Virus record (IMG/VR): IMGVR_UViG_3300037504_000494
Coordinates: 1 to 23,509 of that record
Source: a virus
Direction: 5' to 3' (one strand)
Length of the DNA stretch: 23,509 bases
Position numbers and translations under genes: made by a program. Positions 7,019 through 22,730 of the stretch are shown one piece after another. Each line of letters starts with the position of its first letter. The first letter of the stretch is position 1. The notes below the pieces were generated by a model that was given only the letters and a program-made list of their open reading frames with translations, was not told where the DNA came from and ran no database searches.

Positions 7019-7849
7019 TCACCCTTCGCCGAAGTACTCCTGCGCAAGCTCGTCTGCCATTGCGTCGAAGTCGTCCATGTTGCTGATCTCGCGCTTCTTG
7101 CGCCCGGGCTTCGTCGGTGACGCATTCTTGGACGGACCGCCGGGCTTCGCTTTCTGCTTGGCGGCCGCCTTTTTCTTGGCGGTCTGGTGCGCCACCTTGC
7201 GCTCTTGCAGCATGTCGGCCAGCGCTTTGACCTCGTTGTCGAAGTTGAGCCGGTAGGGGTCGCCGCCTTCGGGCATCATCGTATAGGTGCCGACGATGAT
7301 TTTGTCCACCAGCGGCTTTGCTCCTTCCGGCAGATCGTGCTTCGACATGAGGCTTTCGCGCTGGGACTCGAAATGCCTGCCCAGCCGGTCAGCCTCGACC
7401 CGGTTCTGCACATCGCGCAGCTGCTCCTGGAACTGGCTCTGCATCTGCTGGAACTGGGTGCGATAGCTGTTGCCGAGCGACTGGAAAAACCGCGCCGTCT
7501 CCGCATTGGCGCCATCTTCCACCATCTTGAGCGGGTCGGTGGCCCACGGGTGCGGCTCCGGACCCTTCGGTCGTTGGGCTCTGGGTTGCTGTTGGTTTTG
7601 CAGCATCCGCTGCTGCATCTGCTGCATCCTCTGGTCGAACTGGTCCTGCATCTGCTGAGCCATACCGCTGAGCATCCCCTCGATGTCCTGACGGCCGAGC
7701 GGCTCTGGCTGGGGCTCGGGCTCCGCTTCGGAACCGGGTTCCGCTTCCAACTCGGGCTCTGCCTCGGGTTCCTCGTCCTCGGGGCCTTCGGGCTCCTCGT
7801 AGTCGGGTTCCGTCGGCTGCTCTTGCTCGAGCTCTTCCTGGTCGGGCAT
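7019..7849 (-). CDS. Capsid scaffolding protein
   Basis: A 276-residue hydrophilic protein, immediately upstream of the capsid gene, with the composition of phage scaffolds. The first ~50 residues are almost entirely Glu, Pro, Asp and Gln, an acidic disordered tail. A Gln/Met-rich coiled-coil stretch follows (GMAQQMQDQFDQRMQQMQQRM), then a mixed helical middle (residues ~115-210) and a strongly basic, Lys/Ala-rich C-terminal part (KKKAAAKQKAKPGG), ending in an acidic tip. Basic C-termini of scaffolds commonly bind the coat protein. It would direct shell assembly with the portal and then leave or be degraded; no protease domain is visible. The ATG at 7849 has AGGAGG seven bases upstream. Confidence 0.8.
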   Translation of the reverse strand: MPDQEELEQEQPTEPDYEEPEGPEDEEPEAEPELEAEPGSEAEPEPQPEPLGRQDIEGMLSGMAQQMQDQFDQRMQQMQQRMLQNQQQPRAQRPKGPEPHPWATDPLKMVEDGANAETARFFQSLGNSYRTQFQQMQSQFQEQLRDVQNRVEADRLGRHFESQRESLMSKHDLPEGAKPLVDKIIVGTYTMMPEGGDPYRLNFDNEVKALADMLQERKVAHQTAKKKAAAKQKAKPGGPSKNASPTKPGRKKREISNMDDFDAMADELAQEYFGEG

Positions 7850-15589: not shown

Positions 15590-15917
15590 GCCCCCCTACG
15601 TCCTGCCGGAAGACGTCCGGCGCCTGGCCCACATGTTGCTCCACATGACCTACGTCCAGGGCATGGAGGCCGCCCTCGAGGGCATCGCCTCCGAGGGCAG
15701 GGATCTAGCCCTGGAGGTGCTCGAGAACCACTGTTCTCCAGGGTTTGTTGCTCAACTCGTGGTTTCCGAGTCCATCGACCAAGCCGAGCCAGAATCTCAC
15801 GACGAGCGGGTGGCTTTGCACCTACTTCGTGGGCTCTCCATGGGCGAAAAGAACGATGTCCTCTCCAGAGCCCATACAAGCCTCTCTGAGGGCTTTCGCG
15901 ATCCGGGCAATGCCTGA
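15570..15917 (+). CDS. Unknown protein at end of the DUF115 block
   Basis: A 115-residue, mostly helical, acidic protein (LPEDVRRLAHMLLHMTYVQGMEAALEGIASEG) with no recognised domain. The start ATG 15570 lies inside the previous coding region and has only a distant AAGGAG, so translation is probably coupled. No membrane segment or cysteine cluster is visible. It is the last gene of the plus-strand block; the long gene-free region follows. Confidence 0.5.
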   Translation: MATPTSKPPYVLPEDVRRLAHMLLHMTYVQGMEAALEGIASEGRDLALEVLENHCSPGFVAQLVVSESIDQAEPESHDERVALHLLRGLSMGEKNDVLSRAHTSLSEGFRDPGNA

Positions 15918-16144
15918 CAAGCGCCCACGCCGTGAGACCGCTCAGGGCGGCTCATATGGACTCTCAGGGCGTATCCAACATCCCAACCCCGCGCAAGTCG
16001 CACCAGGCGGGCAGTTCCGTGAACGGGCGACGTCAGCGAGAGTGGCGCGGGGGCATTCAAAACCTTCGCGTCGGGAATTTTTCCACAAACCCCCTTCCCA
16101 AGACCCCCCCCCAGGGGTATTTTCACATGAATAACAACGGGGTG

Positions 16145-16252
16145 GAGGGGTGCCGGCCTCGCACCCAGCGCCGTATCCCATGGGCTGCATTCAGTGCTTG
16201 GGCTACACCTGCCGCAGCGCTTCGCTCAGCCGAGAGGAATGCCGGCCTCGCA
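16145..16252. repeat. Direct repeat pair, GAGGRRTGCCGGCCTCGCA
   Basis: Two copies, 16145-16163 and 16234-16252, match at 17 of 19 positions and share a 13-base identical core, TGCCGGCCTCGCA, 89 bases apart. They lie in the gene-free region. Possible roles are protein-binding sites or a remnant of recombination; no third copy was seen. Confidence 0.6.
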
Positions 16253-16422
16253 TAGCCGCCAGCAGAGCGGGTTTGCGGCACGGTCCGATAACCGTGTTTA
16301 TGTAAACTTTTCTGGAATAAGCTGATAATCTGGGCTGTTAGGCTGTATTTCCTAGACTCATTCTAGCATGTGTGCTGCGGGCTACGCTCCAATATGGTGC
16401 AGCTAGAGCTCTCTTGAGGGGG

Positions 16423-16458
16423 TGTCGGAAATCCGACAGTGGGTGCGAAACTACCCAC
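16423..16458. promoter_or_regulatory. Operator-like palindrome followed by a hairpin
   Basis: TGTCGGA-AA-TCCGACA (16423-16438) is a perfect inverted repeat with seven-base arms. Its inner 14 bases differ at one position from GTCGGAATTCCGAC at 11008-11021, which lies in a promoter-like region. Directly after it, GTGGGT (16439-16444) and ACCCAC (16453-16458) form a six-base stem with an eight-base loop. Together they suggest a regulatory node about 50 bases ahead of the AT-rich island. Confidence 0.5.
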
Positions 16459-16555
16459 CCAAGTAGCACGCTTCCCACACTTTGTGCCATCGGTTTGGGC
16501 CGTGGCTTTAATATATACTATTAATAGAAGGAAGGAAGTAAGGAAGGGAAGGACT

Positions 16556-16717
16556 ATGCAAATAGGTCTACTTTGCACAGCAAAATGTACATTTTGCATA
16601 GCACGGAGGGAAGCCACTGCCTGTAAGTGCTTGATTTTACGTGTCCGCTTACCTGGCATGCTATGTGCTACGTATGCAAGGCAGCTAGGATGGACGGGCT
16701 GGTTGGACGGGAGATAG
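16556..16717 (+). CDS. Possible 53-residue Cys-rich small protein
   Basis: ATG 16556 is preceded by a long purine tract with GGAAGG close by, a strong ribosome site, and by an AT-rich island 40 bases upstream. The product starts MQIGLLCTAKCTFC and holds seven cysteines. However, it contains the 18-base palindrome at 16580-16597 and ends within the G-rich tract, so the sequence may be regulatory DNA that happens to be open. I cannot decide; treat it as a candidate leader peptide or small gene. Confidence 0.3.
   Translation: MQIGLLCTAKCTFCIARREATACKCLILRVRLPGMLCATYARQLGWTGWLDGR
16580..16597. promoter_or_regulatory. 18-base perfect palindrome with flanking TGCAAA repeats
   Basis: GCAAAATGTACATTTTGC is a perfect inverted repeat. 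TATGCAAA at about 16555-16562 and TTTGCATA at 16593-16600 form a further inverted pair, and TTTGCA at about 16573 adds a related copy. This cluster of TTTGC/GCAAA words is AT-rich against the surrounding GC, consistent with binding of a dimeric regulator or an origin-type protein. It begins 54 bases downstream of the AT-rich island. Confidence 0.5.
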
Positions 16718-16738
16718 GGAGAGACGGGCTGGGACGGG
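16709..16738 (+). other. G-quadruplex-type tract of five GGG runs
   Basis: On the plus strand GGG runs at 16709, 16717, 16726, 16731 and 16736 are joined by loops of 5, 6, 2 and 2 bases, which satisfies the usual G3N1-7 rule. The tract ends 25 bases before the ATG of the first right-arm gene and is followed by a run of five T. GACGGG is repeated through the stretch (16693, 16706, 16723, 16733). In RNA it would lie in the leader of the early operon. Confidence 0.5.
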
Positions 16739-16763
16739 TTTTTGATGCAGAAAGGGGACGGAC

Positions 16764-16895
16764 ATGGAAGGCATTTACTGGAGCGAGCTGGCCGCGATCG
16801 TGGATATCCTGCCGTGGGCGGGCGGGATTTGCTGCGCCGCGCTGGGGTGCACAGTGGCACTGTTTAGCGGTGCGCGTCGGAAGGGGGGTCGATGA
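16764..16895 (+). CDS. Small single-pass membrane protein (43 residues)
   Basis: MEGIYWSELAAIVDILPWAGG... with a hydrophobic helix at about residues 11-36 and a basic end (GARRKGGR). The ATG at 16764 has AAAGGGG eight bases upstream, and the TGA overlaps the ATG of the next gene (ATGATG), so the two are coupled. It is the first gene of the rightward block. No family is recognised. Confidence 0.55.
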   Translation: MEGIYWSELAAIVDILPWAGGICCAALGCTVALFSGARRKGGR

Positions 16896-18812: not shown

Positions 18813-19016
18813 ATGAAAAAGACAGAGAACATTTCAATGAGAGTAGAACCAAGGCAGCGCGAGATCCTTGAGGGACTCGGAAGGGGCTCATACGCCAAGG
18901 GCCTAAGGCGCTTGCTGCGGGCCTGGGAAGAGTTGGAGCGGGGGGCTGAGAACCCAGAAACGGCTACGATGTCCGTGCGGACATTCGTCAGTCTGGTACA
19001 GAGGCTTGTGCCATGA
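18813..19016 (+). CDS. Putative ribbon-helix-helix DNA-binding protein
   Basis: A 67-residue protein with the MKKTENISMRVEPRQREILEGLGRG-SYAKGLRRLLRAW arrangement: one beta strand (ISMRV) with an N-terminal basic part, then two helices with a turn at GRGSY. This is the Arc/MetJ/CopG ribbon-helix-helix pattern, and dimers of this type bind palindromic operators. It would be a candidate to act on the palindromes seen elsewhere in the window, but that link is untested. GAGGGAG precedes the ATG, and its stop overlaps the next ATG (ATGA). Confidence 0.55.
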   Translation: MKKTENISMRVEPRQREILEGLGRGSYAKGLRRLLRAWEELERGAENPETATMSVRTFVSLVQRLVP

Positions 19017-19363
19017 ATGGCGAGACACCGCTGGACCTGCTAGCTGACGTCTGGCGCGAGTACATCATCAATCACGCAGCGCACATCATGAAGCGCGCCC
19101 AAGAGGGCGATCCGGAAGCGAAAAAGGTCCTCGACGCGCACTTCCGGGCCTTTGACGACGTGGGCACGAGCAGGCAGGGGAAGTCAATCCTGCTGCTCGA
19201 GGCGGCATTGCGCTGCCACGATGTAGCCACACACGGACAGACGAAAACGTGTGCCTGGTGTGGTAGGGTGCTCAAAGAAGGAACACCGCGGGTCATATCC
19301 CACGGTATTTGCGACGAATGCGCGGCCGAGCAGTTTCCCGCGGATTCGCCCTTGACAAGCTGA
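19013..19363 (+). CDS. Unknown helical protein with C-terminal four-cysteine zinc site
   Basis: A 116-residue protein. Residues ~1-70 look helical (LLADVWREYIINHAAHIMKR). The C-terminal part has CAWCGRVLKEG at 80-83 and SHGICDEC at 96-103, giving C80, C83, C100 and C103, with H97 nearby. This CxxC-SHGICxxC shape recurs in small phage and bacterial proteins and should bind zinc. It is coupled to the ribbon-helix-helix-like gene by an ATGA overlap, so the pair may act together as regulators. The substrate or partner is unknown. Confidence 0.6.
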   Translation: MNGETPLDLLADVWREYIINHAAHIMKRAQEGDPEAKKVLDAHFRAFDDVGTSRQGKSILLLEAALRCHDVATHGQTKTCAWCGRVLKEGTPRVISHGICDECAAEQFPADSPLTS

Positions 19364-19368
19364 CCATC

Positions 19369-19489
19369 ACCGGGCACTGACCCGGTATGCTGCACCAGGG
19401 GACACCTAGATCCGCAAGCGACATACGCCCCGGCAGGGCCTGACCACCATCCCCGTCCCCTGGTGTGTTGGGCCCTGCCGGGGCCTTTT
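19369..19489 (+). promoter_or_regulatory. Structured leader with interleaved inverted repeats before the exonuclease gene
   Basis: A short stem ACCGGG/CCCGGT (19369-19374, 19381-19386) comes first. Then arm A (CACCAGGGGAC, 19393-19403), arm B (GCCCCGGCAGGGCC, 19427-19440), arm A' (GTCCCCTGGTG, 19455-19465) and arm B' (GGCCCTGCCGGGGC, 19471-19484), in that order, each pair perfect. A-A' and B-B' interleave, so they can form a pseudoknot or, if exclusive, alternative folds. B-B' is followed by CCTTTTG, like an intrinsic terminator. The ATG of the exonuclease gene is 15 bases after this. Confidence 0.65.
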
Positions 19490-19503
19490 GCGTGGAGGTG
19501 CGC

Positions 19504-20472
19504 ATGCTGAGCGAAGAACAGTTGGCCATTCGGAAGACCGGGGTGTCGGGCAGCGAGGTGGCCGCCGTGGCCGGCCTGAGCCCCTGGAAGAGCCCGCAAG
19601 ACGTATGGGCTGACAAGCTGGGGCTATCGGAACCCCTCGAGCAGAACGAAGCGATGGAGCGCGGTAATTACCTCGAGTCGGCCTTGCTGCGGTGGATGGC
19701 CGACCGCGAGGGGGTCATCATCGACACAGACCAGCAGACCATCCGGTCGCCGGACCACGATCTGGTCATCGCCACACCGGACGGCTTATGCTACCTGCCG
19801 ACGGACGACACGGGACCGGTGGCCGTCGCCGAGGTGAAGTCGCCCGGGTGGCGGACAGCTCGAGACTGGGCCGATCCGCAAGCAGTTCCGGACGGAATTC
19901 CCACGTACTACCTCCCGCAGGTGACGTGGGAAATGGCGGCGGCCAACCTGGACCAGGCCATCGTCGGCGCGCTGTTGGGCGGCAAGCTGCAGACGTACCG
20001 GGTGGACTTCAATCCGGACCTCTACCAAGCCCTGCTGGGGAAGGTGGAGCCGTTCTGGGAGTACGTGCTCAGGCGCGAGCCGCCGCCGGTGGCGCCCGGC
20101 ACGGCCGACCCCGGCCGGTGGCTGCGTCAGTTCTACTCGCAGCAGACCAGCGACGAGGTGCTCGAGCCGGAGGGCGAGCAGCTCGAGCGCATCCAGCGCT
20201 ACGTCAGCGACTACGACGACGCCCGCGAGCTGGAAAAGCGGGCCAAGGAGAAGAAAAACCTGGCTGCCGCACGGCTGCAGGAGATCATCGGCGAGCGGCA
20301 GGGGATAGCCGGCGGCAAGTTCAAGGTCACCTGGAAGCAGTCGAAAGACCGAGAGGTCGTCGACTGGAAAGCCGTGGCGGCCGACGCCGACGTGGCCGAG
20401 ACGCTTATCGAGCAGCACACCGAACGCAAACCGGGGTCACGGCGCTTGACCGTCACCCTGAGAAAGGACTGA
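19504..20472 (+). CDS. YqaJ-type viral recombinase / 5'-3' exonuclease
   Basis: A 322-residue protein with the YqaJ (lambda exonuclease-like) nuclease pattern: GVSGSEVAAVAGLSPWKSP near the start, E58 in GNYLE, D93 in TPDG, E110-V-K112 in AEVKSP, and PQVTWEM (Q139). These are the metal and DNA-end residues of the PD-(D/E)XK superfamily. It would chew one strand from double-strand ends to expose a tail for the adjacent annealing protein. The last third is helical (ELEKRAKEKKNLAAARLQE). I start at ATG 19504 with GGAGG upstream; a longer frame from 19465 would translate the structured leader. It is the first gene of the recombination cassette. Confidence 0.85.
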   Translation: MLSEEQLAIRKTGVSGSEVAAVAGLSPWKSPQDVWADKLGLSEPLEQNEAMERGNYLESALLRWMADREGVIIDTDQQTIRSPDHDLVIATPDGLCYLPTDDTGPVAVAEVKSPGWRTARDWADPQAVPDGIPTYYLPQVTWEMAAANLDQAIVGALLGGKLQTYRVDFNPDLYQALLGKVEPFWEYVLRREPPPVAPGTADPGRWLRQFYSQQTSDEVLEPEGEQLERIQRYVSDYDDARELEKRAKEKKNLAAARLQEIIGERQGIAGGKFKVTWKQSKDREVVDWKAVAADADVAETLIEQHTERKPGSRRLTVTLRKD

Positions 20473-21878: not shown

Positions 21879-22730
21879 ATGAAGAACGGCCATCTTCTGA
21901 AATCCAGCAAGCTTGTGCGCTCCAAAAAGTGGAGGCAAATTCCAGACGACACCACGCGTTGGGTCTACTGCATCTTGGTCGGCGCAGTTGATTCGTGGGG
22001 TATGCTCCCGGCAGATCCGGGAACCCTGAAATCCACACTGGCGCCATTCTCCGACCACTCCGTACAACTCCTGACTAGGTCCGTACAACTCCTGACTAGG
22101 ATCGGACTTGTACGGTACTGGAAGCACCAGGGAGATCCATGGATTTACATTGAGGGGCACGACGAAAACCAGCGACTTAGAAGAAGAAAAGGCTCACCGG
22201 ACGTCCCAAGACCAGACAAGTCCAGTACAACTCCAGACCAAGACGGGAGTACTCCAGCACAACTCCCGACTAAGATCACCTATGACTTAGACTTTGACTT
22301 GGACTGTGACTGTGACGCGGACAGCGCGCGAGCACGCAAGCACGACCCGATGTTCGACACCACGCCACCACCACCAGACACACACACACCAGCCTACACA
22401 GTTCCGGACGGACACGAGCAGACCATCCAGCGCCTTCGGGAGCACCACGCCAAGCTGCACAACCTCAAGCCGAGGGGTTTCCTGCAAGACCCCGACCTGC
22501 TGATTCGCATCTCAAAGGTGCTGACCGAGTACGGCGAGCACGGCGCCACGCGCATCATCGACGAGCACCACCGCCAGGTGGTCAAGGGCGACATCCCGAA
22601 GAAGGCCCGCGGGTTCAAGTTCGTCTTTCCGGGCCTCAAGGACCGGCCCCAAGAGCCTGATTGGGATTGGCTGGCCGAACGCGAGGGCGGGCAGAGCCCC
22701 GTCGACAGCTGGACGGGGGGGTTGGTTTGA
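21879..22730 (+). CDS. Putative replication initiator / helicase loader
   Basis: A 283-residue protein just before a DnaB-type helicase gene. The N-terminal ~95 residues resemble the winged-helix N-terminus of phage replication initiators: KKWRQIPDDTTRWVYCILVGAVDSWGMLPADPGTLK, a recognition-type helix region, and IGLVRYWKHQGDPWIYIEGHDENQRLR. A middle part (residues ~105-175) is low complexity, with DLDFDLDCDCDAD, and the C-terminal part is helical and basic (DLLIRISKVLTEYG..., KKARGFKF). It would open the origin and deliver the helicase. Residues 61-67 and 68-74 are identical (SVQLLTR), from a 21-base tandem repeat; see the iteron entry. The lower-GC DNA of this gene differs from its neighbours. 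Confidence 0.7.
   Translation: MKNGHLLKSSKLVRSKKWRQIPDDTTRWVYCILVGAVDSWGMLPADPGTLKSTLAPFSDHSVQLLTRSVQLLTRIGLVRYWKHQGDPWIYIEGHDENQRLRRRKGSPDVPRPDKSSTTPDQDGSTPAQLPTKITYDLDFDLDCDCDADSARARKHDPMFDTTPPPPDTHTPAYTVPDGHEQTIQRLREHHAKLHNLKPRGFLQDPDLLIRISKVLTEYGEHGATRIIDEHHRQVVKGDIPKKARGFKFVFPGLKDRPQEPDWDWLAEREGGQSPVDSWTGGLV
22059..22274. repeat. Iteron-like repeat cluster inside the initiator gene (candidate origin)
   Basis: A 21-base unit is repeated exactly in tandem at 22059-22079 and 22080-22100. Its core, GTACAACTCCTGACTAGG, recurs with 15 of 18 matches at 22225-22242 and at 22257-22274, and TTGTACGG (22108-22115) is an inverted copy of part of it. The copy at 22225 is read in a different frame from the first two, so the conserved thing is DNA. 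GGGAGT (22245-22250) and ACTCCC (22262-22267) add a small stem. This layout recalls lambda, in which the origin iterons lie inside gene O. Confidence 0.6.

Follow-up and report, generated by a model that had tools for sequence, protein, structure and literature searches.

Early genes of phages are usually considered in terms of repressors and protein antiterminators, though several RNA leaders bear comparison with the element described here. In attenuators of the trp type and of the pT181/pIP501 type, the antiterminator shares bases with an arm of the terminator. The put RNAs of phage HK022 are sited at PL and PR and are nested stem-loops of conserved sequence with no pseudoknot. In the C4 antisense RNA of phages P1 and P7, and in the CI RNA and seqA-seqC leader of satellite P4, interleaved complementary segments are present in a phage leader and the outcome is premature termination or occlusion downstream. 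The leader of T4 gene 32 has a small pseudoknot that marks the start of gp32 binding, in a case of translational autoregulation by a DNA-recombination protein.

The locus considered here is within 23,509 nt of metagenomic viral DNA (IMG/VR record IMGVR_UViG_3300037504_000494, positions 1 to 23,509), the whole of which is termed the window. An intergenic gap of 140 nt (19364-19503) contains two inverted repeats arranged as A B A' B', whose loops measure 23, 14 and 5 nt; the whole is approximately 92 nt long (Table 1). An earlier note on this DNA had described two perfect interleaved inverted repeats at 19393-19489, and that description is exact, with A matching A' at 11 of 11 positions and B matching B' at 14 of 14. 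The tail that it gave after B-B' as CCTTTTG does include a T run, but the C with which it opens still belongs to B', as the final base, and the tail is CTTTTG. B' is followed by C, TTTT, GCGT, the Shine-Dalgarno core GGAGG (19494-19498), which starts 9 nt beyond the end of B', and the ATG at 19504. The placement upstream of a recombination module also holds, as the element directly precedes a gene for a RecE/YqaJ-type exonuclease. It is probably a real and uncharacterised RNA control element, more specifically a structured leader RNA that is a variant of the phage cis-acting leaders; its structure is well supported, and its regulatory function is what we infer below.

Table 1. Features of the element and its surroundings in the window, and the two copies in the related phage IMGVR_UViG_3300033149_001862 (L001)
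Feature	Position	Strand	Detail or basis
116-aa ORF upstream of gap	19013-19363		
TTGACA, perfect -35 hexamer	19352-19357	+	41 nt upstream of A; sequence
Perfect 6-6-6 palindrome	19369-19386	.	ACCGGGcactgaCCCGGT; spans expected -10 of TTGACA 19352; sequence; hairpin in fold
TATGCT, candidate -10 (4/6)	19386-19391	+	28 nt from TTGACA; sequence; inference
Arm A	19393-19403	+	CACCAGGGGAC; 11/11 match to A'
Loop L1	19404-19426	+	23 nt; holds GCAAGCGACA
Arm B	19427-19440	+	GCCCCGGCAGGGCC; 14/14 match to B', 14 bp
Loop L2	19441-19454	+	14 nt; 3' end is TCCCC
Arm A'	19455-19465	+	GTCCCCTGGTG
Arm B'	19471-19484	+	GGCCCTGCCGGGGC
T4 run, weak intrinsic-terminator-like tail 3' of B hairpin	19486-19489	+	sequence
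Shine-Dalgarno GGAGGTG of exonuclease gene	19494-19500	+	buried in nested MFE
RecE/YqaJ-type recombination exonuclease, 322 aa, first gene downstream of element	19504-20472	+	Pfam YqaJ 9.7e-20; PHROG 434 6.3e-65
Next module gene, 336 aa	20477-21487	+	PHROG 3657 (function unknown)
Copy P1	L001 1509-1590	+	A GCTATGCGGG, B AAGTCGCCGCCCGG
Copy P2	L001 517-438	-	A GCAATGGC, B CCTCCCCCTGGTCG

The closest exonuclease found, with 42-45% identity, is encoded by phage IMGVR_UViG_3300033149_001862. The element is absent directly upstream of that gene, and a topology scan of the same contig revealed two A-B-A'-B' copies elsewhere on it, copies P1 and P2. Copy P1 precedes a 209-aa ORF that starts at 1614 and is 1.4 kb upstream of the exonuclease gene, while copy P2 precedes a 221-aa ORF whose likeness to replication initiators was judged by eye only; the ORFs behind the two copies lie in the early region of this phage. 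Though the arm sequences of the window copy, P1 and P2 are unrelated to each other, every copy has a B stem of 14 bp (with one G-U pair each in P1 and P2) and has TCCCC at or near the 3' end of L2, for which the chance expectation given composition is about 5% each. CAAGC in L1 is common to the copies, L1 of those in the related phage holding CAAGCAACA and CAAGCATACA. Behind each of the three there is a run of four T residues and then a Shine-Dalgarno sequence with ATG, the distance from the end of B' to the Shine-Dalgarno sequence being approximately 9-15 nt.

Copies P1 and P2 are preceded by TTGACA-17-CATGAT or TTGACA-17-TATGAT, and that genome has just three places where TTGACA is accompanied, at a spacing of 16-18 nt, by a -10 hexamer of at least 4/6, these two among them. 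Arm A begins 7 nt past the -10 in both, so that from promoter sequence A is predicted to be at about +1, and a location at the very start of early transcripts is predicted for both. TTGACA is 36 nt upstream of A in P1 and P2, versus 41 nt in the window copy, where there is no good -10 at 16-18 nt (the best is 2/6 and the 17-nt spacing lacks one). Were TATGCT to serve as the -10, transcription would start near 19398 and A would be cut to approximately 6 bp. The palindrome across the expected -10 is possibly an operator or a small hairpin.

A chance origin of the arms is excluded. When the whole window was shuffled 100 times with dinucleotides preserved, interleaved pairs with both arms at least 11 long did not occur, and inverted repeats with arms of at least 14 occurred at 0.04 per window. 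When both strands of 1.30 Mb of viral DNA were ranked for interleaved pairs, the window copy was the strongest, and the others at the top were P1, P2 and an AT-repeat stretch; with summed arms of at least 19 there were, besides the window, the two in the related phage and one AT-repeat artefact and no others, and the GC-rich viral DNA within the 1.30 Mb held nothing comparable except those two copies. The question of compensatory change in relatives, raised by the earlier note, is answered in part by the presence in another phage of two copies that have this architecture and arms of other sequence. Because P1 and P2 were found by seeking complementary arms, the pairing of those arms does not count as independent evidence that they covary. 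The promoter surroundings of P1 and P2, and the base rate in the 1.30 Mb, are independent support.

Since no base belongs to both the A core and the B core, A-A' and B-B' can coexist as a pseudoknot and their exclusion is not obligatory. The two crossing helices are compatible in the manner of an H-type pseudoknot in all three copies, with loops of 23/14/5, 16/18/0 and 27/7/2 nt. A crude estimate, in which duplex energies were summed and a single penalty of 9.6 kcal/mol was added, gave -56.6 kcal/mol for the window pseudoknot versus -52.8 for the best nested fold, and -46.5 versus -36.8 and -41.6 versus -37.8 kcal/mol for the two copies in the related phage; by this crude measure the pseudoknot is better by 4-10 kcal/mol in each of the three, which shows only that coexistence is energetically possible. 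The mutual exclusion of A-A' and B-B' on which the proposed switch depended is therefore unsupported, the cores being disjoint and the pseudoknot being favored by the crude estimate in every copy.

With nested-only folding the RNA is strongly structured, with -49.2 kcal/mol and z = -6.4 for 19420-19492, and z = -6.0 for 19387-19505. The nested fold is a long hairpin with a B-B' core that also takes in GGUGU of A', and this apical extension of B-B' is the sole part that competes with part of A'. When a growing transcript is folded in the same nested-only manner, A-A' is present at 3' ends 19460-19476 (complete from 19466) and B-B' from 19478. Of the idea that the two pairings form a competing switch, the kinetic order of A-A' and then B-B' is thus retained in nested-only folding, while obligatory exclusion is not. 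The window Shine-Dalgarno sequence (19493-19499) has a mean unpaired probability of 0.02 versus 0.33 in shuffles of the 5' flank, of which 14 of 500 were as low. Only the window copy shows this burial in full, the other two showing it in part or not at all; occlusion of the Shine-Dalgarno sequence as a function common to all copies was rejected, as it is strong in the window alone. A third helix common to the copies, between L1 and the T run, was also discarded, being no better than shuffles (P 0.32, 0.05 and 0.39).

The reading that we tentatively prefer, while putting it at somewhat below an even prospect, is that the element is the pseudoknotted, structured 5' leader of an early-gene transcript of a tailed phage and works as a cis-acting attenuator that is close to its promoter and has a weak terminator. 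The leader RNA would fold as an A-B-A'-B' pseudoknot, in which 8-11 bp of A-A' are crossed by the 14 bp of B-B', and B-B' with its short T run would stand directly upstream of the ribosome-binding site. As polymerase leaves the promoter, A-A' would form first and enclose arm B. Then either B' would complete the pseudoknot, in which case release at the weak U tract would be hindered and polymerase would read on, or A-A' would be displaced and B-B' would fold as a long nested hairpin that favors pausing or release, and that in the window copy would also cover the Shine-Dalgarno sequence. The balance might be tipped by polymerase speed, by a phage or host protein, or by a ribosome. For the window copy we infer transcription itself as well as pseudoknot formation, termination and regulation.

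The 14-bp hairpin is followed by CTTTTG in the window and by CCTTTTG and TTGGCTTTTA in the other copies, that is by four consecutive T residues that are 1-5 nt from the stem. With the run that short, and 5 nt away from the stem in one copy, strong intrinsic termination is doubtful. The earlier suggestion that B-B' is a terminator is accordingly sound as to resemblance, a hairpin with a short T run being present, and doubtful as to strength; a scan for consensus terminators, limited to loops of 3-8 nt, did not include the B hairpin among its results. As in trp-type and pT181/pIP501-type attenuators there would be a promoter-proximal leader, a hairpin with T residues before a gene, and an upstream pairing that forms first. 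In contrast to them the element has A-A' and B-B' cores that cross without sharing bases, and there is no alternative pairing that excludes the terminator hairpin, as A-A' uses no base of the 14-bp B-B' core. No leader peptide with a Shine-Dalgarno sequence was found in the window element; an 18-codon ORF over A and B (19387-19443) was rejected as a candidate, as it lacks such a sequence and its length is unremarkable.

The main rival to an attenuator is that the pseudoknot protects the transcript or sets its translation, with no role for termination, which we regard as rather unlikely. If A is at +1, the triphosphate on the 5' end would lie buried next to the junction of A-A' and B-B' and 5'-end-dependent decay would be blocked, and the compact fold just upstream of the Shine-Dalgarno sequence would tune ribosome access. 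That A begins 7 nt past the -10, and so at about +1, in both copies of the related phage is in keeping with this, as are the weakness of the T runs, the ending of B' within approximately 9-15 nt of the Shine-Dalgarno sequence in all three copies, and the strong burial of that sequence in the nested fold of the window. However, the window transcript may not start at A, and the burial, besides being partial or absent in the other copies, is only weakly above chance in the window (14/500). If instead the leader belonged to an independent RNA, with the promoter-to-T-run piece of approximately 80-95 nt being a pseudoknotted phage small RNA and the gene being read by leakage or from another promoter, the promoter-like sequence of two copies, the compact fold and the T run at the 3' end of all three would be explained. 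But the T runs are poor, and since the Shine-Dalgarno sequence starts within approximately 15 nt of the hairpin in every copy a leader fits better, so that this is very unlikely.

Antitermination in cis in the manner of HK022 put, with the RNA acting on polymerase so that later terminators are ignored, is less likely than protection or tuning and is quite improbable overall. Its attraction is the position right behind a predicted promoter, which in the related phage applies to two transcripts that run in opposite directions and resembles the position of put at PL and PR, together with strong structure and little sequence conservation; the features in common would be those of a structured cis-acting RNA with which early transcripts begin, possibly on both of the early arms. 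Put RNAs, however, are two conserved stem-loops, nested and with no pseudoknot, whereas the element has crossing helices and a T run after its hairpin, and antitermination by it is hypothetical. It is also highly improbable that B-B' is an ordinary long terminator hairpin around which A-A' occurs by chance or for unrelated reasons, with no function for a pseudoknot. The nested fold is already very stable without A-A', and terminators are common between phage genes, but such interleaved arms were never seen in shuffles and recur twice in the related phage with similar geometry. Action at the DNA level, as an origin or recombination site, is disfavored relative to an RNA role by the start of the related-phage element at a predicted transcription start.

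The element shares interleaved complementary segments with the C4 and P4 CI systems and differs from them in being only approximately 92 nt long, with arms that pair as one compact unit; the C4 model RF01695 was not among the Rfam matches at E up to 10. Like the T4 gene 32 leader it would be a 5' leader pseudoknot upstream of a recombination or replication gene, but its stems are 11 and 14 bp, it adjoins the Shine-Dalgarno sequence and it has no Rfam match. Searches of Rfam with the window and the related phage gave no match above the gathering score, with only implausible weak matches at E up to 10; with no riboswitch family matched there, a riboswitch-type reading is not sustained. Among the papers listed in literature searches on phage leader pseudoknots and attenuators, which were reviews and unrelated work, no title or abstract describes an A-B-A'-B' arrangement, and a search on antitermination by the put RNA of HK022 yielded nothing.

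No close relatives of the window virus were found, and scans with the portal, helicase and PHROG 3657 proteins yielded no close relatives with the exonuclease. BLASTN of the element region against phages and plasmids gave no homologous element, and the exact arm pattern did not occur in viral contigs. When viral and bacterial genomes were scanned for the promoter with CAAGC, the related phage alone passed the topology filter among the matches listed, and when TCCCC was added and IMG/VR was scanned together with 84,980 bacterial and archaeal species genomes, P1 and P2 were the only convincing cases after that filter. Two phages are the known carriers, and no further member came up among the matches listed in the other scans. 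The exonuclease family is present in approximately 5% of sampled genomes (22/399) of the order of an Alcaligenaceae MAG. The element is absent both from the 1.5 kb flanks of 20 Burkholderiales exonuclease loci (E 1e-30 to 1e-43) and from the gene-dense DNA immediately upstream of the G001 exonuclease. Either the element is rare, or its members have diverged beyond the reach of the scans used.

It is a rather doubtful proposition that the element represents a new class of leader RNA in phages, namely a pseudoknot at sigma-70 early promoters that has the 5' end of the transcript in the knot and gates the entry of polymerase or ribosome into replication and recombination genes, with arms that change freely in sequence under a constant architecture. 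If it is correct, a compact and self-contained RNA module located between the promoter and the ribosome site would add to the known means of setting early expression. With its shape kept and its sequence not, it would be invisible to sequence-based searches, which would explain the empty Rfam and BLAST results.

Some other phage sequences seen in the course of this work merit mention in their own right. In Gordonia phage NHagos (L011 1055-1143) the gap upstream of gene 71 has two inverted repeats that are interleaved, their arms being 9 and 18 long, which overlap by one base with G-U allowed and are without a T run; this is possibly another pseudoknot leader. L036 1735-1870 (IMGVR_UViG_3300028277_000427) has a TTGACA-TATGAT promoter, a small hairpin CATCGTCGCTTCCCCAAGCGATG, a strong terminator CCCCGGTC..GACCGGGG with T7 and then an ATG, and looks like an attenuator leader without interleaving. 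On the minus strand of L077 (approximately 498-590; IMGVR_UViG_3300028802_000008) there is a cluster of alternating GTCAACA/TGTTGAC boxes that is iteron- or operator-like.

Within the window itself there is no convincing second copy of the element upstream of a putative replication-initiator gene (21879-22730), and inside that gene is a perfect tandem 21-bp direct repeat (22059-22100) that could be origin iterons within an initiator gene, as in lambda O. The approximately 1 kb of 15900-16890 has no convincing genes, its GC content drops to approximately 50% and GC skew changes sign near 16.2 kb; it includes inverted repeats CTATGCAAA/TTTGCATAG near 16554-16601 and is possibly an origin or early control region. 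Imperfect 18-bp tandem repeats (7715-7767) are present in the minus-strand gene at 7019-7849, which encodes an acidic Pro/Glu-rich N-terminus.
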